Part shown: one piece after another, positions 1,492 through 56,795 of the stretch
How positions within the stretch are numbered: the stretch's first letter is position 1
Layout: every line of letters begins with the position of its first letter
DNA from: Nevskia sp.
GTDB taxonomy: Bacteria; Pseudomonadota; Gammaproteobacteria; Nevskiales; Nevskiaceae
Direction: 5' to 3'
Length of the DNA stretch: 64,000 nt
Assembly: GCA_019689635.1 (NCBI GenBank)
Contig: JADGHB010000005.1
Span: 1 to 64,000, forward strand
Position numbers and translations under genes: made by a program
Notes under the pieces: generated by a model
Told to the model about the DNA's origin: nothing
Seen by the model: the letters and a program-made list of their open reading frames with translations, nothing else
Database searches by the model: none

Positions 1492-1955
1492 ACGCGGTGA
1501 CCGCAGCGATCGCAGGACTGCTGTTCGGTTTCGGCCTCTCCCTGTCGGGCATGGTCGATCCCGCCCGGGTGGTGGGGTTTCTCGACGTCGCCGGACGCTG
1601 GGATCCAACCTTGGCCTTCGTCATGGGTGGCGCAGTGCTGACCACCACCCCGATCTACTGGTTCGTGCGCCGCTTGCGGGCGCCGCTGCTAGCGCCGAGT
1701 TTCGTGTTGCCGACCAAGACCCGCGTGGACCGCAACTTGCTCGCCGGCGCCGCGATTTTCGGCGTCGGCTGGGGAATTTCCGGATTGTGCCCCGGTCCGG
1801 CGATCGCCGATCTCGCGCACCCCAGCGGACCGCTGGCCTTGTTCCTCGCCGGCATGCTCGCTGGGACCTGGCTGGACCGCCGTCTGCGCCAATCGGCCGA
1901 TACCAGACCGGCGCGCGGCGATCGGGCGGATCCGGCCCAGGCACCGATCTCCTGA
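1488..1955 (+). CDS. YeeE/YedE-family sulfur permease, second half-protein (DUF6691 type)
   Basis: A 155-residue membrane protein that partners the preceding half-permease; the genes overlap by 4 bases. It has the family motif GLCPGPAI in the second half and a GxxLSGMxDP motif near the N-terminus, typical of PmpB/DUF6691 subunits. Known relatives carry thiosulfate or related sulfur anions with relay cysteines. The C-terminal 25 residues are hydrophilic and Arg/Asp-rich, so they should be a cytoplasmic tail. Expression probably starts at the divergent promoter near 940. Confidence 0.82.
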   Translation: MNAVTAAIAGLLFGFGLSLSGMVDPARVVGFLDVAGRWDPTLAFVMGGAVLTTTPIYWFVRRLRAPLLAPSFVLPTKTRVDRNLLAGAAIFGVGWGISGLCPGPAIADLAHPSGPLALFLAGMLAGTWLDRRLRQSADTRPARGDRADPAQAPIS

Positions 1956-2040
1956 TCGTCGCCTCGATTCCTGGCGGACGAGGTGCGCGTTCCGCGTGCG
2001 GGCAATATAAATTTTTAACGGGGGGCAAAAATCATTTGAA

Positions 2041-2069
2041 TCGATAGTACCTACCCAGGTAGGTATATT
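2041..2069 (+). promoter_or_regulatory. Promoter with perfect operator palindrome (site 2) for the transketolase-like gene
   Basis: TACCTACC-CA-GGTAGGTA at 2048-2065 is a perfect inverted repeat with 8-base arms. It contains two overlapping copies of TACC-N6-GGTA, starting at 2048 and 2052. A plausible promoter brackets it: TCGATA (2041-2046), a 17-base spacer, and TATATT (2064-2069). Repressor binding would cover both the spacer and the -10 box. This is the most symmetrical of the four sites in the window. Confidence 0.65.
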
Positions 2070-2119
2070 GGCCGCCAACGAGCATCCGCCGGCATCGTTC
2101 CGCGCGGAGAGGAGGAGGC

Positions 2120-4246
2120 ATGAAGATCGTGAGCGACGGCACGATCGCGCGGCCAAGTCACGGCGCCGGCGCCGCGGCGCACGCCGGTCCACTGGCGTAT
2201 GGCGTGGAAGTCGCCGGCCCTGGATTCGGCTTGGAACCTTGCCGGGTGGAGTATTCCGAACTGGCCCACGCGCTGCGCGTGCTGGCGCTGGACACCGTCG
2301 AATGCGTGGGATGCGACGGGGCGGCGTCCCTGGGTATGGCCGATGCCTTGAGCGTGCTGGCCGCGCGCTTTCTCAAGTTCGATCCGGACGATCCGGCCTG
2401 GCCGGACCGCGATCGCTTGCTGATCGCGGCCGGGGCGTGCGCGCCGCTGCGGTCGGCGCTGCTGCGTGTGACCGGCTATCCCGGCGCGACGGCGACGCCG
2501 CAGCGCGAGCTACCGCCGTGGATCGATTCCCCGGCGACGACGGGATCCGACTGCGCGCCCGGAGGGGAGGTTCCAAGCGGAACGCCCGGATTGGTGCTGG
2601 CGCATGCGGTGGGCATGGCGCTGGCCGAGCGCATGCTCGCTGCACGATACGGTTCCGATTTGATCGACCACTACACTTATGTCCTGGCCGACGAAGCCTG
2701 TTTGATGCAGGGCGTGGGGCACGAAGCCGCTTCGCTCGCCGGCCATCTGCGCCTCAACCGGCTGATCGTCCTGTTCGACGACCGCCGCGCGCCGCAGACC
2801 ACCGCCTGTTCGGACGACCACCTCGAGCACTTCGTGTCCATGGGCTGGTCGGTGAAGCGCGTCGATGGGCACGATCCCCACAGCATCGCGCAGGCCCTGG
2901 ACGCGGCGCGCGACGGCCATCGCCCCACGCTCATCGCCTGCTGCACACGAGGCGAACCTGCCGGGCGCAAAGAGACGGACGGCGAGTCGATCGTTGAGCG
3001 CGACGACGTGGCCACGGCGGCAGCCGAGCGCCGACGCCTCGGCTGGCCGCCGGCCGCCTTCGAAATCCCCCCGATGATCGCGCGGGCCTGGCGCAAAGTG
3101 GCCGAGCGCGGCGCGGCGGCTCGCGCAGCCTGGAACGCGCGATTGCATGCACTCGACGAAGGCGAACGCGCCAGCTTCCTGAATCGGCTCGCTGGCGAAC
3201 TCGCGCCGGCGATCGGCGAAACGCTGCGTCGCTATGCGCAGGGCGACACGGGTTCGTCGATGGAAATCTCGCCGGGTGCATGGAGTCGGGAGCTGCTCGA
3301 GGCTTTGGCGGCGGCGCAGGACAACGTGTTCGTGGCCACGAGTGGCCCGGCGGACGGCACGCACCGTCGCTTGGCAAATCTTCCTGCACTCGACGGCGAA
3401 GATTTCACCGGACGCTGTCTGCATCTTGGTGCGCGCGAGCAGGCGCTGCCCGCAGTGCTGACTGGCATCGCCTTGCACGGCGGTTTCATTCCCGTGGGCG
3501 CAAGCGCGCTGGCCACGGCGGACTTCGGCCGGGCGGCGATACGCCGGTCGGCGGCGCTGCGACGACGCGTCATCTATGCGATGAACGACGATGCAGGCGT
3601 CTGTGGCGAAGCCGTGGCGTCGTTGCCCGCGTTGCCTGTCGAGCAACTCGCCGCGCTGCGCACCATTCCGGGATTGATTGTCATCCGTCCGATGGACGCG
3701 GTCGAGACCGCCGAGGCCTGGGAGATGGTGCTGAATACGCTGCACGCGCCGACGGTCCTGTGTCTGTCGGAGCGGCCCTTGCCCCGCCTGCGCTCGACGC
3801 CGTCCGAAACCAACCGCACGGCACGCGGGGGCTATGTGCTACGGCACGCGCGGCAGCCGCGCCACGCCACGCTGCTCGCCACCGGGCCGGAAGTGGCCTT
3901 GGCAAGCCTGGCGGCGGAACGCCTGGAGGCGGAGGGCATCAACACCGCAGTGGTGTCGCTGCCGTGCTTCGCGCTGTTCGCGGCGCAGTCCGCCGACTAC
4001 CGTGCGCGCGTGCTGGGTGACGCGCCGCGTTTCGCGATCGAGGCCGGGACGCGCGACGGTTGGGATCGCTGGCTGGCCGCGGACGACGAGTTCATCGATG
4101 CGCAGCGCTGCGGTCCGCCCTCGACACTGGCAACCGCGGCCGGCCGTAGCCGTGCGGCGGAATACATCGCCGCCGTGGTGCGGCGGCGCATGGCCGATCG
4201 TCCCCGGCGCGCTGCCGCAAGCGGCGGTCCGCCCGCGCGCGCTTGA
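2120..4246 (+). CDS. Full-length transketolase homologue lacking cofactor and catalytic residues (probable pseudoenzyme)
   Basis: A 708-residue protein that aligns along its whole length with transketolase: N-terminal ThDP domain about 45-370, middle domain about 385-560, C-terminal domain about 565-690. Recognisable segments include LGMADALSVL, GMALAERMLAARY, DHYTYVL, GHEAASLAG and GIALHGGF. The working residues are gone. The ThDP/Mg GDG motif is ADE (190-192) and its partner Asn is Arg222. The active-site histidines known as 26, 66 and 100 in E. coli TktA align with Asp66, Ala106 and Thr140. The GPLGQG loop is GTPGLV, and the THDSIGLGEDGPTHQP region is rewritten without His. Only Glu439, matching the catalytic Glu411, remains. 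There is no stop or frameshift over 708 codons, and the gene has AGGAGG before its ATG and its own operator, so this looks selected rather than decaying. Its role is unknown; sensing or scaffolding in sulfur metabolism is speculation. Confidence 0.8.
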   Translation: MKIVSDGTIARPSHGAGAAAHAGPLAYGVEVAGPGFGLEPCRVEYSELAHALRVLALDTVECVGCDGAASLGMADALSVLAARFLKFDPDDPAWPDRDRLLIAAGACAPLRSALLRVTGYPGATATPQRELPPWIDSPATTGSDCAPGGEVPSGTPGLVLAHAVGMALAERMLAARYGSDLIDHYTYVLADEACLMQGVGHEAASLAGHLRLNRLIVLFDDRRAPQTTACSDDHLEHFVSMGWSVKRVDGHDPHSIAQALDAARDGHRPTLIACCTRGEPAGRKETDGESIVERDDVATAAAERRRLGWPPAAFEIPPMIARAWRKVAERGAAARAAWNARLHALDEGERASFLNRLAGELAPAIGETLRRYAQGDTGSSMEISPGAWSRELLEALAAAQDNVFVATSGPADGTHRRLANLPALDGEDFTGRCLHLGAREQALPAVLTGIALHGGFIPVGASALATADFGRAAIRRSAALRRRVIYAMNDDAGVCGEAVASLPALPVEQLAALRTIPGLIVIRPMDAVETAEAWEMVLNTLHAPTVLCLSERPLPRLRSTPSETNRTARGGYVLRHARQPRHATLLATGPEVALASLAAERLEAEGINTAVVSLPCFALFAAQSADYRARVLGDAPRFAIEAGTRDGWDRWLAADDEFIDAQRCGPPSTLATAAGRSRAAEYIAAVVRRRMADRPRRAAASGGPPARA

Positions 4247-4271
4247 CAGGCCGCTCGAATCCGAGTACCAA

Positions 4272-4287
4272 TTACCTAGAGGGGTAT
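4272..4287. promoter_or_regulatory. Operator-like site 3, TTACC-N6-GGTAT
   Basis: Located 66 bases before the second YeeE/YedE pair. It has the same half-sites and N6 spacing as sites 1, 2 and 4. A TATATA box at 4289-4294 follows directly and may be the -10, though no convincing -35 is visible at normal spacing. The intergenic gap is only about 100 bases, so the site most likely controls the permease pair. Confidence 0.58.
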
Positions 4288-4352
4288 GTATATAACCCCA
4301 GCGTCGAGCAGCGCGAGACTCGCCGCGGCGCAAATCGGAGGAGAAACATTCG

Positions 4353-4868
4353 ATGACCCCACAACCGCGTCCGCTATGGAATCCCTACCTGGCCGGCCTG
4401 GTGCTCGGCTTGGGATTGTTGTTGACGTTCGTGCTCACCGGTCACGGGCTCGGCGCGAGCGGTTTCACCACCGCGCTCGCGGCATCGGCGAGCAAGACGC
4501 TGGCCCCGTCGGCGACGGCGGCGAACGCCTACTTCGGCCCGATGACCGCGTCGCACAATCCGCTCGATTCCTGGATCACCTGGGAAGTGATCGGCCTGGC
4601 GCTGGGTGCTTTGGCCTCCGCCGTGTTCGCCGGCCGTTTTCGCCTGAGTCTGGATGGACCCTCGCGCTTGCCGCGTGCGCGCCGGCTCGCCTTGGCGCTC
4701 GTCGGCGGCGCGGTGTCGGGATTCGGCGCGCGCGTTTCGCTCGGCTGCACCAGCGGCCTGGGACTGTCCGGATCGGCGGTGCTGGCCACGGCGGGCTTTC
4801 TGTTTCTGATCGGGTTCTTCGGCGCCGGTGTCGGCATCGGCTTGCTCATGAAGAGGTACTGGCAATGA
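4353..4868 (+). CDS. YeeE/YedE-family sulfur permease, first half-protein (second pair)
   Basis: A 171-residue membrane protein with the motif SLGCTSGLGLSG, equivalent to GGCTSGHG in the first pair, and about four hydrophobic segments. It is longer than the first-pair protein and has an extra N-terminal hydrophobic stretch and periplasmic-looking loop (residues about 45-70). GGAGG lies 11 bases upstream of the ATG. It overlaps the next gene by four bases (ATGA), as in the first pair. The two pairs are divergent in sequence, so they may handle different sulfur substrates or act in opposite directions. Confidence 0.85.
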   Translation: MTPQPRPLWNPYLAGLVLGLGLLLTFVLTGHGLGASGFTTALAASASKTLAPSATAANAYFGPMTASHNPLDSWITWEVIGLALGALASAVFAGRFRLSLDGPSRLPRARRLALALVGGAVSGFGARVSLGCTSGLGLSGSAVLATAGFLFLIGFFGAGVGIGLLMKRYWQ

Positions 4869-5767: not shown

Positions 5768-6526
5768 ATGGATGCGGCCGGCCCCGGTGTTCATGGAAGC
5801 AACGGCCGCATGAGTCTAAAAGGCGAGGAGTTGCTGGCGGTTCTACGCCAGTTGCCCCGCGACCGGCTGCTGAGGATGAGATCGGCGGGCGCGGAGGTGG
5901 TGGAGTGCATGAGGAGACTGGCCGCGCGCGGGAGCAGTGTCGCCGCGGAATTGATCGGCGGCCAGCGTCCAGCCCAAGCCTGGGATCATTATCCCAGCGG
6001 TGACGCCGTCGATCCACGGCGGCGCATCCGGTATTACTACCATTGTCACGGCCGCAGGCCGCCGCCTTTACCGGGCGAGCACGGGCATTTCCATTTGTTC
6101 TGCGAGAGTAATCCCTCGGCACGCGGCAGCGCGCCGACGCTGGTGCATCTGGCTGCGCTGTCGGTGGACGCGCACGGGCTGCCCATCCGCGTTTTCACCG
6201 CCAACCGTTGGGTCACGGATGGCGCGTGGCGATCCGCACGCACCCTTGCGCGTCACCTGGAAGGGTTCCGCGTACGCACGCGGCATTCTTCGGTGCTGGT
6301 CGACCGCTGGCTGTCCGCGGTGGTTCGCCTGTTCTACCCTCAGCTGTGCCTGATCCTTGAACGCCGTGATGCGCGCCTGCGGCGCCTGAGCACGGCGCGT
6401 TCCAGGCACCGCGTGTTCGCCGATCGCCGGATCCCGGTCTTGAGTGCCTGCCGCATCTCGCTGTCCTGGCAGTTTCAGGCGCTCGAGCGCGCGCTTGCGA
6501 AATCGCACACGGAGAGAATGACATGA
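5768..6526 (+). CDS. Conserved hypothetical protein with His/Cys motif (possibly DUF6969)
   Basis: A 252-residue, Arg-rich soluble protein. Its centre has the motif YYYHCHG, then PGEHGHFHLF about 10 residues later, which looks like a metal-binding cluster. The pattern reminds me of the family called DUF6969, a tentative recognition from memory. There is no signal peptide or membrane segment. An alternative ATG at 5810 (MSLKGEELL) has GGAAG upstream and may be the true start. The stop overlaps the start of the rhodanese gene, indicating one transcript with the sulfur genes around it. Function unknown. Confidence 0.65.
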   Translation: MDAAGPGVHGSNGRMSLKGEELLAVLRQLPRDRLLRMRSAGAEVVECMRRLAARGSSVAAELIGGQRPAQAWDHYPSGDAVDPRRRIRYYYHCHGRRPPPLPGEHGHFHLFCESNPSARGSAPTLVHLAALSVDAHGLPIRVFTANRWVTDGAWRSARTLARHLEGFRVRTRHSSVLVDRWLSAVVRLFYPQLCLILERRDARLRRLSTARSRHRVFADRRIPVLSACRISLSWQFQALERALAKSHTERMT

Positions 6527-7497
6527 AGCCGACATCCTGGCTGTTGTTGTTTGGTCTTTCGGTGGCCACAGCCGTCGCCCGCGCGGCCGGCGTGCCCGGC
6601 CCTGTGGTCAGCGCGGCTTGGCTGCACGATCACCTCGCGGAAGTGACCGTGGTAGACGTGCGCGACGAGCCGGAGACCTTCACCGTCGCACCGACCTATG
6701 AAACCGATCCTAAAACCGGTGCCCGCGCGCTGACCAAAGTCGGCGGCCACATTCCCGGCGCCCGATTGGTGGAGTTCGGGAAGATACGCGTCGATCGCGA
6801 AATCAACGGCAAGATGATCAAGGCCATGCTTCCGGATCGGGGATATTTCGAGAATCTCATGCGTGCGGCGGGAGTTTCCGGGAGCAAGCCGATCGTCATC
6901 ACCATGCCCGGCGAGACGCTCGATCAGGTGGACATGGCGACGCGTTTGTACTGGTCGTTGAAATATTACGGCACCGACGAGCTGGCGATTCTCGACGGCG
7001 GCAATGCCGCCTGGCTCGCCGCCGGTTACGAGGTCTCCACCGACCCGCCGGCGGCCGGCGGCGGCGATTGGAGCGCCACCGCGGAGCGTAAAAGTCTGCT
7101 GGCCGAGAGCGCCGACGTGTCCGCAGCGCAGAAATCGAAGAAGGTGCAACTGGTGGACGCAAGGCCGCTGCCGCAGTACCTCGGCCTGAGCAAGAAACCG
7201 GTCGTGCTGGCCGCCGGGCACATTCCTGGGGCGAAGAATTTGCCGACCGACGTGGTGACGCGCGCCGCTGGGCCCGCGCAGCATTTCCTCAGCGCCGCCG
7301 ATTATCGCGGCGTGCTGAACGCACTCGGTATCAAGCCGAGCGCAAGCACCATCACCTACTGCAACACCGGTCATCTCGCCTCTGGCGCCTGGTTCGTGAT
7401 GAGCGAAATCCTCGGCAATCCGCACGTGAAGCTTTACGATGGATCGATGACCGAATGGACCACCGAAAAGCAGCCGGTGGTCGCCGCGATCGAATGA
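6523..7497 (+). CDS. Periplasmic tandem-rhodanese sulfurtransferase
   Basis: A 324-residue protein with a signal peptide (1-22) and two rhodanese domains (about 27-175 and 195-320). The second domain has the catalytic loop CNTGHLAS with Cys280, the residue that carries the sulfane sulfur. In the first domain the equivalent loop is MPGETLDQ with no cysteine, so it is structural, as in thiosulfate sulfurtransferases. It should transfer sulfane sulfur from thiosulfate or polysulfide in the periplasm. The start overlaps the previous stop by 4 bases, and a GGAGAG site lies upstream. Confidence 0.88.
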   Translation: MKPTSWLLLFGLSVATAVARAAGVPGPVVSAAWLHDHLAEVTVVDVRDEPETFTVAPTYETDPKTGARALTKVGGHIPGARLVEFGKIRVDREINGKMIKAMLPDRGYFENLMRAAGVSGSKPIVITMPGETLDQVDMATRLYWSLKYYGTDELAILDGGNAAWLAAGYEVSTDPPAAGGGDWSATAERKSLLAESADVSAAQKSKKVQLVDARPLPQYLGLSKKPVVLAAGHIPGAKNLPTDVVTRAAGPAQHFLSAADYRGVLNALGIKPSASTITYCNTGHLASGAWFVMSEILGNPHVKLYDGSMTEWTTEKQPVVAAIE

Positions 7498-49187: not shown

Positions 49188-49335
49188 GGTCGTATCCGCT
49201 TGCGATCCTTGAAACACTCTGGCAGGCGCTCCTAGGTTAGCGCACCGACGTCGGAGCGCCAGCGCTCGGATGATAGAATGCCGCCCCGATCGAGGCCGCA
49301 TGCCCCGCGCGGCCGGACCAGGAGATGCCGCATCC

Positions 49336-51111
49336 ATGAGCACCGCTTACCGCCACATCAAAATCCCGGCTGCCGGAGAGAAAATCACGGTCAGGAACGG
49401 CAAGCTGCATGTGCCGGACCAGCCGATCATCGGCTACATCGAAGGCGACGGCATCGGGCCGGACATCACGCGCGCCTGTCTGCGCGTGTGGGACGCGGCC
49501 GTGGCGAAAGCCTACGGCGGCAAGCGCAAGATCCACTGGTGCGAATGCTTCCTCGGCGAGAAGGCGGCGGGCCTCTACGACGGCAACTACTGTCCCGAGG
49601 AAACGCTCGCGGTGCTGCGCGACCTGGTGGTTTCCATCAAGGGGCCGCTGACCACCCCGGTCGGCGGGGGATTCCGCTCGCTCAACGTGGCGCTGCGCCA
49701 GGAGCTGGACCTCTACGCCTGCGTGCGGCCGGTGCGCCACTATGCCGGCGTGCCCAGTCCCCTCAAGCGGCCGGACAAGGTGGACGTGGTGATCTTCCGC
49801 GAGAACACGGAGGACGTCTACGCCGGCATCGAGTACAAGGCCGGTACGCCGGAGAACGCCAAACTCGCCGACTTCCTGCGTAAGGAGCTGAAGGCCAAGT
49901 TCTTCGAAGGCGCCGGCCTCGGCGTCAAGCCGATCTCGGAGTTTGGCACCAAGCGGCTGGTGCGCAAGGCGATCCGCTACGCGATCGACAACGGTCGCGA
50001 GTCGGTGACCCTGGTGCACAAGGGCAACATCCAGAAATTCACCGAGGGCGCGTTCCGCAACTGGGGCTACGAGGTCGCGCGCGAGGAGTTCGGCGCGGTG
50101 ACCATCACCGAAGAGCAGCTCTACGGCGAATACAAAGGCAAGTTGCCGGAAGGCAAGATCGTCATCAAGGACCGCATCGCCGACATCATGTTCCAGATGA
50201 TGCTGCTGCGGCCCGAGGAGTTCGACGTCATCGCCACTCCCAATCTGAACGGCGACTACTTGTCCGACGCGATCGCGGCCGAGGTGGGCGGCGTGGGCAT
50301 CGCGCCCGGCGCCAACATCGCCGACTTCGTGGCGGTCTTCGAAGCCACCCACGGCACGGCTCCGAAATACGCCAACCAGAACAAGGTCAATCCGGGCTCG
50401 CTGCTGTTCTCGGGCGTGATGATGCTGGAGTACATGGGCTGGAAGGAGGCCGCCGACCTCATCACCCTGGTCTATCCGGAAGTGGTCAGCGATGGCATCG
50501 TCACGTACGACTTCGCCCGCCAGATCGAGGGGGCCACGGAAGTCGGAACCTCCCAGTTCGCGGACGCGCTGATCGAGCGCATCGCGGGGGGTGTCGATCT
50601 GGAAGCCAAGCGCCGCGCGCAACAGGAGCAGCTCGCCAAGGAGCGCAAGCAGCGCGAAATCCGTCGCCTGCTGCAGCCGCTGGAAGAGATGGTCGAGACC
50701 GGCCGCGTACCGACCACCGTGGCCGATCTGATGACGCGCTCGCTGATCACGGTGACCGACGACGACACGGTGGAGAGCGCGATGCACCTGATGACCGACA
50801 ACGACATCAGCTCGGTGGTGGTGGAACCCGATCGCGACGGGGTGTGGGGCATCCTGACGCGGCGCGACATCGTCACCAAGATCGTGCGCGCCGGCAGGAA
50901 TCCCGCGACCACCAAGGTGCGCGAGGTCGCCAGCCGGCCGGTCGTGTCGGTGCCGGCCGAGATGAGCATCCGCGAGGCCGCCGACAAGGTCTCCGAGAGC
51001 AACTACAGCCGCTTCACCGTCGCCCAGGGCGACCGCATCATCGGCATCGTCACCGAAACCGACATCTTCCAGGCAGTGGAAAAGTTCGGCTGGGCCGGCG
51101 AAGCGGTGTGA
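49336..51111 (+). CDS. icd: NADP-dependent isocitrate dehydrogenase fused to a CBS domain pair
   Basis: A 591-residue fusion. Residues 1-418 are an E. coli-type isocitrate dehydrogenase: GDGIGPDI, the substrate segment RSLNVALRQ with Ser115 (the Ser that AceK phosphorylates in E. coli), and HGTAPKYA. Lys344, Tyr345, Tyr391 and Arg395 match NADP-binding residues, even in numbering. Residues about 422-455 form a charged helical linker and 460-585 two CBS domains ([18 protein letters not shown] and [18 protein letters not shown]). CBS pairs usually bind adenine nucleotides, so the TCA-cycle enzyme may be tuned by AMP/ATP. An ordinary IDH stops near residue 418. No aceK is in the window. Confidence 0.93.
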
Positions 51112-51157: not shown

Positions 51158-51955
51158 ATGCGCCATCCGCCAGCAGCGACGGAGCGCTCGCCGGTGCTGA
51201 TCAATCTCTTCGTCGTGGGCGACGAGATCCTTTCCGGCCGCCGCCAGGATCGGCATCTTGCCAAGGTGATCGAACTGCTGGCCGCGCGCGGCATGGAGCT
51301 GTTCGGCGCCGAATTCCTGCCGGACCACGAAGCGCGCATCGCCGAGAGCATCGCGCGCGTCCGGGCGCGCGACGAGGTGCTGCTGTGCTGCGGTGGTATC
51401 GGTGCCACTCCGGACGACCTCACTCGCCAGGCGGCGGCGCGCGCCTTCGGGGTGCCCCTGGCGCGGCACGGCGAGGCCGAAGCCCTGATCGTGGCGCAGT
51501 ACGGCGAGCGCGCGCGGCCGCACCGCGTGCGGATGGCCGACTTTCCGGCGGGCAGCGGGCTGATTCCCAATCCGGTCAACCGCGTACCTGGTTTTTTTCT
51601 CGGCCATTGCTACTTCGTGCCCGGCTTTCCGGAGATGGCCTGGCCGATGCTGGAATGGGTGCTGGACGGACCGCTGGCGGGCTTGCATCGCCCGCAACCG
51701 CCGGCGCAATACGCACTGCGCGTGTATGGTGCGGCGGGCGAGGGTGACCTGTTGCCCATGATGGAGCAGCTGCTGCGCGAGTTTCCCGAGGTCAAACTAT
51801 CGAGCCTGCCGTTCCGCGGCGATGCGGCGCGGCCGCCTCACATCGAACTCGGCGTCAAAGGACCGCCGCCGGCAGCCACCGCGGCCTGGCACTGGTTGCG
51901 GGCACGATTGGCGCACATGCCGGAATTGCGGGTCGAAGTCTTGCGCGCACCTTGA
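51158..51955 (+). CDS. CinA N-terminal-like (molybdopterin-binding fold) protein
   Basis: A 265-residue protein of the competence/damage-inducible CinA MoaB/MogA-like domain: VVGDEILSGRRQDRH, the CCGGIGATPDD motif and RVPGFFLGHCYFVPGFPEM. It lacks the C-terminal deamidase domain. Relatives include pyrophosphatases that clear damaged NAD precursors. A GTG at 51194 (VLINLFVVG) is an alternative start. Confidence 0.85.
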   Translation: MRHPPAATERSPVLINLFVVGDEILSGRRQDRHLAKVIELLAARGMELFGAEFLPDHEARIAESIARVRARDEVLLCCGGIGATPDDLTRQAAARAFGVPLARHGEAEALIVAQYGERARPHRVRMADFPAGSGLIPNPVNRVPGFFLGHCYFVPGFPEMAWPMLEWVLDGPLAGLHRPQPPAQYALRVYGAAGEGDLLPMMEQLLREFPEVKLSSLPFRGDAARPPHIELGVKGPPPAATAAWHWLRARLAHMPELRVEVLRAP

Positions 51956-52071: not shown

Positions 52072-53507
52072 TTAAAACTGCATGCCCAGCGCCTTGCCGA
52101 TGTCCCAGATGTCTTTGTCCACCCGTTCGGCCATGTTGACCACCACCGCACGATCCTTGGGCAGGCGCATCGCGGCCTGCGCAGCCCAGGCGATCACTTG
52201 CGCGGTCTGAATCGCGGGGATGATGCCTTCCAGGCGGCTGAAGTCCTGGATGGCGTGCTTGGTTTCTTCGAGCGTGACGCTGCCGTACTCGACGCGGCCG
52301 CTGGCCTTGAGTGCGCGATGCTCGCGCTCGACGCTGGGGTACTCGAGTCCTTCGAGGATCGCCTCGGCGCGGCGCCGGCGCGACTCGTCCATTTCCACTG
52401 GCACCACCTCGCCCTGGCGGGTCATGACCGTTCCCGCGCCTTCTTCCCAGGCCGTGCATTCCACGCACACCAGCCTGACCGCCGACTCGTTGAGGAAGGG
52501 ATGCAAGAAACCGATGGCGTCGGCATTGTTGCCGGCGCGCGCCACCAGAACATCCGGCGGACGCTGCGCCTGGCCGCGCACTTGCAAGCGGCATTCGCGG
52601 CCGATGGCCGAAACCGCGTCCAGCGCCAGTTCGGGATAGGGCGCGGGAGCGGCGTCCAGACCCAGCACGGGCAGGCAGTGTTCGGGATCGCGCAGCCAGT
52701 GGCGCAGTGCCGCCTCGCGGATATCGCCGCCGGGCAGCCGGTCGCGGTCCGTGATGGTTTCCACGGCCGCGCCGGTCAACCACATGCGGAAGACGTTGGT
52801 GCCCTGGCGGTGCAGATCGTGGCCGTCCATGTACACCGTGGCGCGCAGCCCCAGGCGCGCGGCGATGGCGGCGGTGATCACTCCGCGCTGGCCGTCGCGG
52901 CTGGCGGTCACGAGGTGCTGCTTGCCCAAGCGCTTGGCGAACAGGGCCTGGGCGATGACCGCCATCAGCAGGCGCCCGCCGGCTGGCACCAGATCCTCGC
53001 GTTTGACGTAGATCTGCGCACCGCCCAGGCGCTCGGACAGCCGCTGGGCATGGAACAGGGAGGACGGCCGGCCGGCGAAGCGGATCAACTCGCGGTCGAA
53101 TTCGGACAGGAACGCCGAGCCCGTGCGCAGCTTCTCGTACTCGCGGGCAAGGTTTTCGAACAGCGGCGCATATTCCTTGCTCTCGCCCAGCCGGCGATGG
53201 CGCACCGCCGGCGTCGGCTGCGAGTCCGGCGACAGCGCCAGCCGCCGGTATCGAAGAACAGCGGCGAGGAGGGCGCGAATTTGCGTCCGATGCTCGCCAC
53301 CAGCCGCCATTCGTTGCTGTCCAGCCGTCCCTTGAGGCTGTCGTGCAGGGCCTGCGCCTCGCGCAGGAATTCGCGCTCGCGGTCGGTTTCGAAATACAGC
53401 TCGATCAACTCCACCCGAGCCTTGAGATTCTGAGGGTCGCGGCGCAGTTGTTCGAGCAGGCTCTGCTCGAGGTGATCGTGATAGGCGCTGCTGGCTTGTG
53501 GTGGCAT
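52072..53507 (-). pseudogene. Frameshifted gene: TPR/FimV-like N-terminus joined to a TrpB-like domain lacking the PLP lysine
   Basis: Two frames overlap. The first (start 53507, MPPQASSAYHDH) encodes a helical TPR/FimV-like part (LKARVELIELYFETDRE ... IGRKFAPSSPLF); near 53247 it must shift by one base to enter the frame LALSPDSQPTP ... that runs to 52072. One missing base would restore about 478 residues. The second part matches tryptophan synthase beta throughout (FENLAREYEKL, GRPSSLFHAQRL, KREDL, RLEGIIPAIQTAQ, VVNMAERVDKD). Residues that make TrpB work are gone: the HK of GAHKINN (PLP lysine) reads RL, the ETGAGQHG catalytic Glu is Ala, the phosphate loop GGGSNA is AGNNAD, and the serine of VNLSGRGDKD is Ala. 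The frameshift may be a sequencing error; the lost residues are not explained by it. Confidence 0.7.
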
Positions 53508-53529
53508 GGCCTTCACCCTGAGTTATGCA

Positions 53530-55908
53530 TTAGCTTAGCGCGGTCGGGCGATCCTGCGCCAAGAACAGCCAGGTCTGCACCACGCTGTCGGGGTTGAGGC
53601 TCAAGCTTTCGATGCCCTGTTCGACCAGCCAGCGCGCGAGATCGGGATGGTCCGACGGTCCCTGACCGCAGATGCCGATGTACTTGTTCTTTTTGCGGCA
53701 GGCGGCGATGGCCATCGCCAGCAGTTTCTTCACCGCCGGGTCGCGTTCGTCGAACGCGCCGGCCACCAGTCCGGAATCGCGGTCCAGTCCCAGGGTGAGC
53801 TGGGTCAGATCGTTGGAACCGATGGAGAAACCGTCGAAGTAATCGAGGAATTCCTCCGCCAGCAGGGCGTTGCTGGGCAGCTCGCACATCATCACGATCT
53901 GCAGGCCGTTGGCGCCGCGTTTGAGTCCGTTCTCCTCCAAAATCCCGATCACGCGCCGGGCCTCGGCGAGCGTGCGCACGAAGGGCACCATGAGCCTGAC
54001 GTTGGTCAGGCCCATCTCGTCGCGCACGTACTTGAGCGCGCGGCATTCCAGGTCGAAGCACGGACGGAAGGCATCGGCGATGTAGCGCGAGGCGCCGCGG
54101 AACCCGAGCATGGGGTTTTCCTCGTGCGGCTCGTAGCGCGTGCCGCCGATCAGGTTGGCGTATTCGTTGGACTTGAAGTCCGACAGGCGCACGATCACCG
54201 GCTGCGGGGCGAAGGCGGCGGCGATGGTGGCGATGCCTTCGGCCAGGCGCATCCAGAAATAATCGACCGGCGAGGGATAGGCCGCGATCATCGGCTCCAC
54301 CAGGCGGCGCACTTCCGCCGGCTGCTGCGGCAGTTCCAGCAGCGCGCGCGGATGGATGCCGATCTGGCGGTTGACGATGAACTCCAGCCGCGCCAGGCCC
54401 ACGCCGCGGTGCGGCAGGGCGGCGAAGTCGAAGGCCTGCTCCGGCGTGCCCACGTTCATCATGATCTTGACCGGGAGCTCCGGCATGCGGTCCAGCGCGA
54501 CCTCGTCCACCGCGTAGTCGATGCGGCCCTGGTACACATAGCCCGTGTCGCCCTCGGCGCAGGACACGGTGACTTCGTCGCCGTCGGCGAGTCTCTGCGT
54601 GGCGTCGCCGCAGCCCACGATGGCGGGAATGCCCAGCTCGCGCGCGATGATCGCGGCATGGCAGGTGCGCCCGCCGCGGTCGGTGACGATGGCGGCGGCC
54701 TTCTTCATGACCGGCTCCCAGTCGGGATCGGTCATGTCGGTGACCAGCACGTCGCCGGGCCGCACGCGGTGGATCTCGTCGATGCCGCGCAGACGGCGCA
54801 CGCGGCCGACGGCGATCTTCTGGCCGATGGCGCGGCCCTGCGCGAGCACGCGGCCGCGCGATTTGAGCTGGTAGCGGCGCAGCACTTGCGCGCCGGCGCG
54901 CGATTTCACGGTTTCCGGGCGCGCTTGAAGGATGTAGAGCTGCCCGTCGCTGCCGTCCTTGCCCCACTCGATGTCCATGGGACGGCCGTAGTGTTCCTCG
55001 ATCGCCAGCGCCTGACGGGCCAGCTCGGTGACTTCGGCATCGTCGAGGCAGAAGCGCAGCCGCTCGGCTGCGGGCACGTCCACCGTCGCCACGCCCTGGC
55101 CGGTCTCGGCGTAGACCATCTTGCGCGCCTTCTCGCCCCGGTTGCGGCGCAAAATCGCGGGACGGCCCGCGCGCAAGGCCGGTTTGTACACGTAGAACTC
55201 GTCCGGATTCACCGCGCCCTGCACCACCGCTTCGCCGAGGCCGTATGCGGCGGTGATGAACACCGCCTCGCGGAAACCGGACTCGGTGTCCATAGTGAAC
55301 ATCACGCCGGAGGCGCCGAGATCGGAACGCACCATGCGCTGCACGCCGGCGGACAGCGCCACCGCGGCGTGGTCGTAGCCGTGGTGCGCGCGGTAAGCGA
55401 TGGCGCGATCGTTGAACAGGCTGGCGAAGACCTCCTTGACCGCGGTCAACACCGAGTCGATGCCGCGCACATTGAGAAAGGTCTCCTGCTGGCCGGCGAA
55501 AGAAGCCTCCGGCAGATCCTCGGCGGTGGCCGAGGAGCGCACCGCGACCGCGATCGCGCCACCGGCCTCTTCGCACAGCCGCGCATACGCGGCGCGAATC
55601 TCGGTTTCCAGCGCGGGCGGGAACGGCGCCTGGCGGACCGCCTCGCGCAAGGCCTTGCCGGTGCGGGTCAGGGCACCGATGTCGTCCACGTCGAGCCGCG
55701 CCAGTTCCTCGTGGATGCGCTGCGCGAGTCCGTTGCCGGCGAGGAACTCGCGAAACGCGCTCGCGGTGGTGGCAAAACCGGACGGCACGCGCACGCCGGC
55801 CGCGCGCAAATGGCGCGTCATCTCGCCCAAAGAAGCGTTCTTGCCGCCGACGCGTTCGAGATCGGCGATGCCCAACTGGTCGAACCACTCCACCCGCGAC
55901 ACGGTCAT
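53530..55908 (-). CDS. ppsA: Phosphoenolpyruvate synthase
   Basis: A 792-residue enzyme making PEP from pyruvate with ATP. N-terminal ATP-binding domain ([15 protein letters not shown]), the phosphohistidine domain with [15 protein letters not shown], and the C-terminal PEP/pyruvate barrel ending [11 protein letters not shown]. It feeds gluconeogenesis in autotrophs. Divergent from its regulator ppsR; the gap is 56 bases. Confidence 0.95.
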
Positions 55909-55964
55909 TGCCCCATTCCGTCGTTTACACTGGATTCTCAAGTCAAGCTGGCCGCGCTCGCCGC

Positions 55965-56795
55965 ATGGAATCAGCCGCCGCTACCGAACAACGCGCCGTG
56001 TTCTTCGTCTCCGACGGCACCGGCATCACCGCCGAAACTCTCGGCAACACGCTGCTGACGCAATTCGAAGGGGTGGCCTTCCGCAAAACCACGCTGCCCT
56101 TCATCACTACGCCGGAGCGCGCGCGCGCGGCAGTGGACTATATCAACCACGTCGCCAGCGCCGCCAGCCGGCGACCGATCGTGTTTTCCACCACGGTCAA
56201 CGACGAGGTGCGCGCGATTCTGCGCGGCGTGCAGGGCCTGTTCCTCGATCTGTTCGACACCTACATCGCGCCGATCGAGCACGAGCTGGGCCAGAAATCC
56301 ACCCACGCCGCCGGCCGCGCCCACGGCCTCGCCGATCCGGTGCGCTATCACGCCCGCATCGCGGCGATGAACTACGCGATGGAGCACGACGACGGCGCCA
56401 GCACCAAGGATCTGACGCGCGCCGACGTAATCCTGATCGCTCCCTCGCGCTGCGGCAAGACTCCGACCACGCTGTATCTGGCTTTGCAGCACGGCGTGTT
56501 CGCCACCAATTTCCCGCTGACCGAGGACGATCTCGAAGCTCAGCGCTTGCCGCGCGCGCTGGCCGGCCTGGAGTCCAGGCTATTCGGGCTGATCTCCGAG
56601 CCCGAGCGCCTGGCGCAAGTGCGCGGCGAGCGCCGGCCCGGCTCCCGATACGCCTCGCTGGCCCAGTGCGCTTTCGAGTTGCGTCAGGCGGAGGCGCTGT
56701 ACCGCCGTCACCGCATCCCGTTCGTCAATTCCGCCCACATGTCGATCGAGGAGATCGCGGCGGTGGTCATGCAGGAAAAGAATTTGCAGCGTTAG
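55965..56795 (+). CDS. ppsR: PEP synthase regulatory kinase/pyrophosphorylase
   Basis: A 276-residue DUF299-family bifunctional enzyme. It inactivates PpsA by ADP-dependent phosphorylation and reactivates it by phosphorolysis. It has the opening [17 protein letters not shown] and the P-loop-like [15 protein letters not shown]. Divergent from ppsA as in other proteobacteria. A terminator follows it. Confidence 0.94.

Follow-up and report, generated by a model that had tools for sequence, protein, structure and literature searches.

The available part of PMC12918733 places a second TPR of P. putida FimV within the cytoplasmic region of the protein (residues 487-556), apart from the C-terminal FimV domain. 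A PLP-enzyme relative serving as a binding protein is described in the accessible sections of PMC5562914, in which CysK binds the C-termini of partners in its active site and CYSL-1, a CysK homologue without biosynthetic activity, binds EGL-9. Among tryptophan synthases, the plant TSB-like protein is presented in the excerpts of PMC12727527 as a dead TrpB that activates TSA, and it is marked by the replacement of the catalytic glutamate by Ala (Ser or Pro in Solanaceae) and by an Asp to Glu change at the position of Thermotoga D300. In TrpB itself, C170 is a tunnel-wall position where bulky residues restrict passage and N171 is an alpha-contact residue (PMC5573416, partial text). Our literature searches, which covered open-licence papers, found no description of a fusion between FimV and TrpB. 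By these searches, a FimV-derived protein with a pseudoenzyme instead of its usual C-terminus appears to be new.

We analysed a stretch of 64,000 nucleotides from Nevskia sp. (contig JADGHB010000005.1), which is referred to as the window and to whose numbering all coordinates belong unless another contig or locus is named. On its minus strand lies a gene in which a FimV-type TPR part precedes a TrpB-like domain. The features of the locus are as follows, with the method in brackets and residue positions in the numbering of Salmonella TrpB.

52072..53205, minus strand: TrpB-fold pseudoenzyme domain (PALP, AlphaFold2, VIA-align to 2dh6)
52126..52131, minus strand: Ala-Glu at the S377-G378 positions (alignment)
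52324..52326, minus strand: family-specific Arg at the P311 position (alignment)
52519..52539, minus strand: former phosphate-binding loop, with Arg at C230, Ala at Ser235 and Asp at N236 (alignment)
52717..52719, minus strand: Arg codon at the indole-tunnel wall position C170 (alignment)
52903..52905, minus strand: Ala codon at the catalytic glutamate position E109 (alignment)
52969..52971, minus strand: Leu codon at the PLP-lysine position K87 (alignment)
53222..53312, minus strand: frame-change stretch holding one shift of one base, in or close to the variable linker between TPR and TrpB (GC by codon position)
53240..53507, minus strand: N-terminal TPR frame, homologue of the FimV internal TPR (FimV-internal-TPR HMM and family HMM A4)
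53530..55941, minus strand: ppsA (PEP synthase), upstream of the fusion and on the same strand (TIGR01418, 1186.9 bits)
55908..56795, plus strand: ppsR (PEP synthase regulator), divergent from ppsA (NF049928, 372.2 bits)

The open reading frame at 52072-53310 (minus strand) encodes a TrpB-like protein (Pfam PALP, E 4.6e-25), and the score of the domain against the NCBIfam trpB model TIGR00263, 269 bits, lies under the equivalog cut-off of 392.45 bits. An AlphaFold2 model of 52072-53205 (minus strand), made from a 23-row alignment, reached a pLDDT of 86.1 and a pTM of 0.83. When solved structures were ranked by VIA-align over the 1000 best Foldseek chains, the top structure was apo-TrpB 2dh6 (Z 36.5, 326 residues, rmsd 3.7, 34% identity), and the titles of the best 50 rows all name tryptophan synthase, whether natural, engineered or ancestral. 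The identity to solved TrpB among the best rows was 32-40%. A sequence search against solved structures agreed with the fold match, giving 48 distinct sequences, nearly all of them TrpB. The genome of the window also has an intact trpB on a separate contig (C97), with 41% identity to the window domain. We read the residue losses by alignment to this intact TrpB and assigned the Salmonella numbers via motif alignment. Specifically, the PLP lysine is replaced by Leu (codon 52971-52969, minus strand), the catalytic glutamate by Ala (codon 52905-52903, minus strand), the Ser-Asn of the phosphate loop by Ala-Asp (52524-52519, minus strand) and the Ser of SGRGDKD by Ala (52131-52129, minus strand), and the N-terminal GPYGGRFV motif of TrpB is absent. 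These results confirm a TrpB fold over the full length of the domain without PLP lysine or catalytic glutamate. The initial annotation had described a clear TrpB fold with the PLP lysine, catalytic glutamate, phosphate loop and serine all replaced, and it was right on each of these points.

The family was gathered from 61 relatives and from 85 genomes of the window's order, with flanks fetched for the loci; the criteria for membership were similarity and a fused TPR, and the lysine played no part in them. Among the matches listed, 31 TPR-TrpB fusions were found in the order, including that of the window, in 26 of the 85 genomes and in 11 genera; L003 and L084, the same protein from two collections, were counted once. 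In these same matches, all 30 other fusions read from the TPR into TrpB in a single open frame (165-266 bits) and the window copy alone is split, with 121.9 and 83.9 bits in two frames. Apart from these two frames, the next row below the fusions had 106.2 bits. Start codons, membrane spans and the labels short, membrane and FimV were assigned to the relatives by eye. With these labels, 22 members, that of the window included, are short forms and three (L096, L116 and L117) join a membrane span to the TPR and the dead TrpB. In six members (L112, L113, L114, L115, L119 and L198), FimV_N and PALP occur within a single open reading frame; in L119, PALP is below the Pfam cut-off (E 2.7e-4) and the trpB match is 2.5e-24. 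PALP was detected in 30 of the 31 members when the TPR-TrpB part was scanned. A model of the intact relative L083 (pLDDT 83.1) presented four N-terminal helices (residues 16-86) followed by the TrpB fold, and its best PDB matches by Foldseek were TrpB. Five genomes carry two fusions. Within the window's genus, the paralogues of G008 are both short forms (L085 and L120), and those of G001 are a short form (L089) and a FimV-type form (L113).

Outside the order, no match at the fusion level appeared among the matches listed for a class sample of 369 genomes or for a phylum sample of 398 genomes, two samples that overlap, and the best scores of the junction HMM (109.8 and 106.5 bits among the matches listed) came from the TrpB part only. 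In a wider contig scan, 79 of 80 stretches, out of 110 confirmed, carried the HKxN lysine motif, the exception being the family member L003. As far as searched, the family is confined to one gammaproteobacterial order.

The TPR part of the window comprises 89 residues from the ATG at 53507, and 22 bases separate it from the ppsA stop. An HMM built on nine canonical FimV proteins, from their internal TPR segments, matched this frame with 39.8 bits (E 1.9e-11). When the same HMM was applied to the 530 window open reading frames of at least 60 codons, the single match was 53088-53522 (minus strand), in the same frame as the TPR part. The family HMM A4 aligned to it over columns 3-97 (83.9 bits, E 1.5e-23). 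The nine FimV proteins gave a significant TPR match at one place, about residues 560-790 of open reading frames of 811-1161, before the C-terminal region; these segments were found using the family HMM, so only their letters, and not their borders, are independent. The FimV-internal-TPR HMM matched 28 of the 30 relatives at E 5.7e-4 or better, missing L093 and L094. A TPR control with 125 TrpB was weak because trimming had left only 85 residues ahead of the lysine motif in their sequences. A better control, with whole open reading frames of at least 200 codons at the 80 loci of the wider scan, returned two matches, the family member L003 and a separate FimV open reading frame in L004. FimV_N was not found in either part of the window gene in a Pfam scan with E up to 1. 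Together with the six relatives that are FimV proteins ending in a dead TrpB, the TPR match bears out the earlier reading of a TPR/FimV-like N-terminus in another frame.

A maximum-likelihood tree of the 31 family members and 35 of 125 canonical TrpB separated the family from the canonical sequences by a branch with support 100/99. Within it, a FimV clade of 10 (support 99/93) comprised the six FimV forms, two membrane forms and two short forms, and a clade of 21 (support 100/99), referred to as the short clade, comprised the membrane form L096 and 20 short forms, which group without it at only 82/82. The FimV clade has long branches, which leave its inner order unsure.

We then compared residue columns between the 31 members and the 125 canonical TrpB. 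The canonical set was chosen by the motifs GAHKxN and SGRGDKD, so its counts for the lysine, Ser377 and Gly378 hold by construction, and those at E109, S235, N236 and P311 are independent of the selection; the filter excluded 27 other TrpB with variants such as GSHKxN, all 27 of which keep the lysine and the ETGAG motif. Neither the PLP lysine nor the catalytic glutamate was present in any family member (0/31 each). At the lysine column the short clade has Leu (18), Ile (2) or Met (1), and the FimV clade Glu (4), Ala (3), Pro (2) or Val (1); L093 (G049) and L094 (G043) have a Lys one residue before it. A clade member with an intact PLP lysine, which the initial annotation had named as refuting its reading, did not turn up among the 31. 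Of the 121 columns conserved at 95% or more in TrpB, 23 were kept in at least 85% of the family and 32 in at most 10%. Ser377 remains Ser in seven of the 31 members. The P311 position is Arg throughout the family (31/31) and Pro throughout the canonical set (125/125).

The TrpA interface and tunnel positions, which are not retained in the family, bear on a first alternative, in which the protein would be a bacterial counterpart of eudicot TSB-like that binds and activates TrpA so that free indole escapes as a signal. We take the two TSB-like marker positions to be E109 and D305 of Salmonella TrpB, and if so, the window carries Ala and Glu there. The double marker of a lost glutamate and Asp to Glu at D305 is found in the window and not in all members, the short clade having Glu in 13, Asp in 7 and Ser in 1 at D305, and R141 is kept in 18 of its 21 members. 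Against this stand the loss of the PLP lysine as well as of the GPYGGRFV motif, the absence of most of the 256-305 loop from the FimV clade, an Arg at the C170 position in 28 of the 31 members, where bulky residues restrict passage (PMC5573416, partial text), and the alpha-contact position N171 of the same source, where 124 of the 125 canonical TrpB have Asn or Asp and the short clade has Glu, Lys, Asp, Tyr or others. Because of the tunnel Arg, the changed N171 and the missing N-terminal motif, this route is less likely than a role as a binding module, and we regard it as improbable.

A second alternative is a new enzyme, in which new invariant residues in the cleft catalyse a PLP-free reaction. 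The loops around 230, 236 and 378 hold the PLP phosphate and ring in canonical TrpB, and it is in these loops that all 21 members of the short clade share Arg at C230, Asp at N236 and Glu at G378. The ten members of the FimV clade do not conserve these three residues, the loci have no recurrent metabolic neighbour, and the attached TPR, with FimV in six members, favours a binding role. We consider new catalysis slightly less probable still than activation of TrpA.

The third alternative is simple decay, with a duplicated trpB drifting to a pseudogene and the frameshift as one sign of it. In its favour are the window frameshift together with the loss of all catalytic residues, the long end branches of the FimV clade, and the FimV-type match in G022:C55 (L114), which reads through a TGA near its C-terminus. 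Selection was estimated by dN/dS (Nei-Gojobori, own script) in 13 family pairs, which have sequences in common and in two cases a dS > 2, and 12 of them gave 0.06-0.28; the remaining pair, L116/L117 of the FimV clade, gave 0.47 and would also suit decay. When five pairs were split by domain, the TrpB part gave 0.06-0.19 and the TPR part 0.07-0.42, the TPR part being faster in some of them (0.42 and 0.37 in two of the five). Against decay, the same positions are replaced in 31 of 31 members, there are new invariant residues, the junction is open in 30 of 30 relatives among the matches listed, and the window copy itself retains all six of the family-specific residues checked. Selection, shared replacements and open junctions therefore led us to reject decay of a trpB duplicate for the family, a reading to which we assign only a slight chance. 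Altogether, the shared losses, the new invariants, the single fully supported branch and the purifying selection seen in the low dN/dS indicate a conserved loss of catalysis and not decay, and the fusion seems to persist under selection in a non-catalytic role.

In the window gene, the frame from 53507 is free of stops until 53087 and the C-terminal frame is free of stops from 53532 to its stop at 52074. GC by codon position, in 120-base steps, located the frame switch between about 53312 and about 53222. With one switch and stop-free frames on both sides, there is therefore one shift and not many, consistent with the one-base shift that the initial annotation had placed near 53247; further stops or shifts, which it had named as a sign of decay, are absent from the window gene, and the TGA of L114, at the far end, is the exception in the family. 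No run of at least four identical bases occurs within 53320-53190, and the length of the junction linker differs among the relatives. We conclude that a single frameshift breaks the gene in this genome and that it reflects either recent mutation or faulty assembly. That the gene is truly split in this species, as two proteins or as one joined by programmed frameshifting, is the least probable alternative, for although the C-terminal frame is open from 53532 and has, within the TPR region, an ATG at 53310, there is no such identical run, no clear ribosome-binding site upstream of 53310 (by eye) and no relative among the matches listed that shares the split.

The initial annotation had also pointed to the neighbouring ppsA. 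This gene does adjoin the fusion in the window, but tblastn of the flanks found the ppsR-ppsA-fusion arrangement in only three of the 26 genomes (G000, G022 and G065; flanks of about 1.5 to 8 kb, with several loci cut by contig ends), so the neighbour is no hallmark of the family, and a conserved operon with ppsA was rejected. On the other side of the fusion, 49270-51111 (plus strand) is an isocitrate dehydrogenase open reading frame that extends at its C-terminus into two CBS domains (Iso_dh, E 7e-83; CBS, E 2.6e-26), and between it and the fusion lies a stand-alone molybdopterin-binding-domain protein (51158-51955, plus strand; MoCF_biosynth, E 1.5e-24). Clustering of neighbouring open reading frames at 29 loci revealed nothing common to more than nine loci, mostly close relatives, after large clusters had been set aside that, from their position, we took for the fusion itself read in other frames. 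Single loci have a glutamine synthetase near the fusion (L261), an adjoining carbamoyl-phosphate synthase small chain (L269) or three tandem GGDEF genes nearby (L263). Nine GGDEF open reading frames lie near fusions at five of the 31 loci, compared with about two loci expected from 552 GGDEF matches in the 26 genomes; the Poisson p of 0.048 is rough, as it assumes that each locus spans 12 kb and that the genomes, by rounded sizes, add up to about 105 Mb. GGDEF enrichment near the family is thus at most a weak lead. The GGDEF loci are L263:2213-6315 (minus strand), L268:3388-6423 (plus strand), L274:7476-10808 (minus strand) and the flanks of L270 and L120; two of the GGDEF genes have EAL motifs. 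PilB was rejected as a correlate of carriers, since it is over the cut-off in 78 of the 85 genomes of the order and does not single them out.

The position of canonical fimV genes offers a possible route to the fusion. In L157 the gene order is asd-fimV-truA-trpF-trpB-trpA-accD, with every gene confirmed by NCBIfam. In nine loci, fetched because their FimV_N and trpB matches were close together, fimV and trpB lie a few kilobases apart (by eye), and in the genome of the window FimV_N (C97:17516-17836) and trpB (C97:12721-13824) have trpF in between. In L004, a contig titled Pseudomonadota, a FimV-type TPR open reading frame (1836-4448, plus strand) lies shortly upstream of a canonical trpB (5986-7281, plus strand), so the closeness of the two genes extends beyond the genomes studied. 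The proximity in the nine loci suggests that the fusion arose by deletion: in a duplicated copy, a deletion from the middle of fimV into the nearby trpB may have produced the FimV-type fusion, and shorter soluble forms such as that of the window would then have lost the periplasmic and membrane parts. No deletion intermediate was seen among the genomes examined, and the maximum-likelihood tree does not pick out which TrpB is the source of the fusion domain.

We propose, as the account that fits best and is probably correct, a conserved family in which a FimV TPR is joined to a PLP-dead TrpB, which would have originated by deletion, undergone later losses and come to act as a non-catalytic binding module. 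The most likely role would be that of a binding module tied to the FimV pole hub. Here, the TPR may recruit, or be recruited by, the hub or its clients, and the TrpB fold, with its emptied cofactor cleft lined in the short forms by invariant Arg, Asp and Glu, could hold a small ligand or a partner peptide. The part that anchors FimV in the membrane is absent from most members, so placing the short form at the pole is conjecture. More speculatively, and with clearly lower confidence, a pole landmark may have absorbed an enzyme as a built-in sensor, so that a ligand or peptide in the cleft gates recruitment by the TPR and couples metabolism to type IV pili or polar signalling.

The family presents a metabolic enzyme apparently captured by a scaffold protein and frozen into it, with the likely route visible in the proximity of fimV and trpB. 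FimV-length, membrane and short versions are all available, so that one can trace how catalysis was lost and in what sequence the events took place. For the field of cell polarity, it adds a class of FimV without the usual C-terminal client-binding domain, and for that of pseudoenzymes, a bacterial TrpB case alongside the recent plant case.

Compared with TrpB (TIGR00263), the window domain has the whole fold and the family is without the PLP lysine and the catalytic glutamate, the window also being without the phosphate-loop Ser and the N-terminal motif. Eudicot TSB-like is likewise a dead TrpB, and if the positions correspond as assumed above, the window shares both of its marker changes, but the plant protein acts via TSA (excerpts of PMC12727527), whereas here the PLP lysine, the N-terminal motif and the tunnel position are also changed and the protein carries a FimV TPR. 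CYSL-1 and CysK resemble the family in that a PLP-enzyme relative serves as a regulatory peptide-binding protein (accessible sections of PMC5562914), and they differ in belonging to the cysteine synthase lineage, not to TrpB, and in having no TPR or FimV. With FimV/HubP (FimV_N PF25800, FimV_core TIGR03505) the fusions have the internal TPR in common and, in six members, the in-frame FimV N-terminal domain; most of them, including that of the window, are without the periplasmic part, and in the family everything that follows the internal TPR, the C-terminal FimV domain included, has given way to a dead TrpB.
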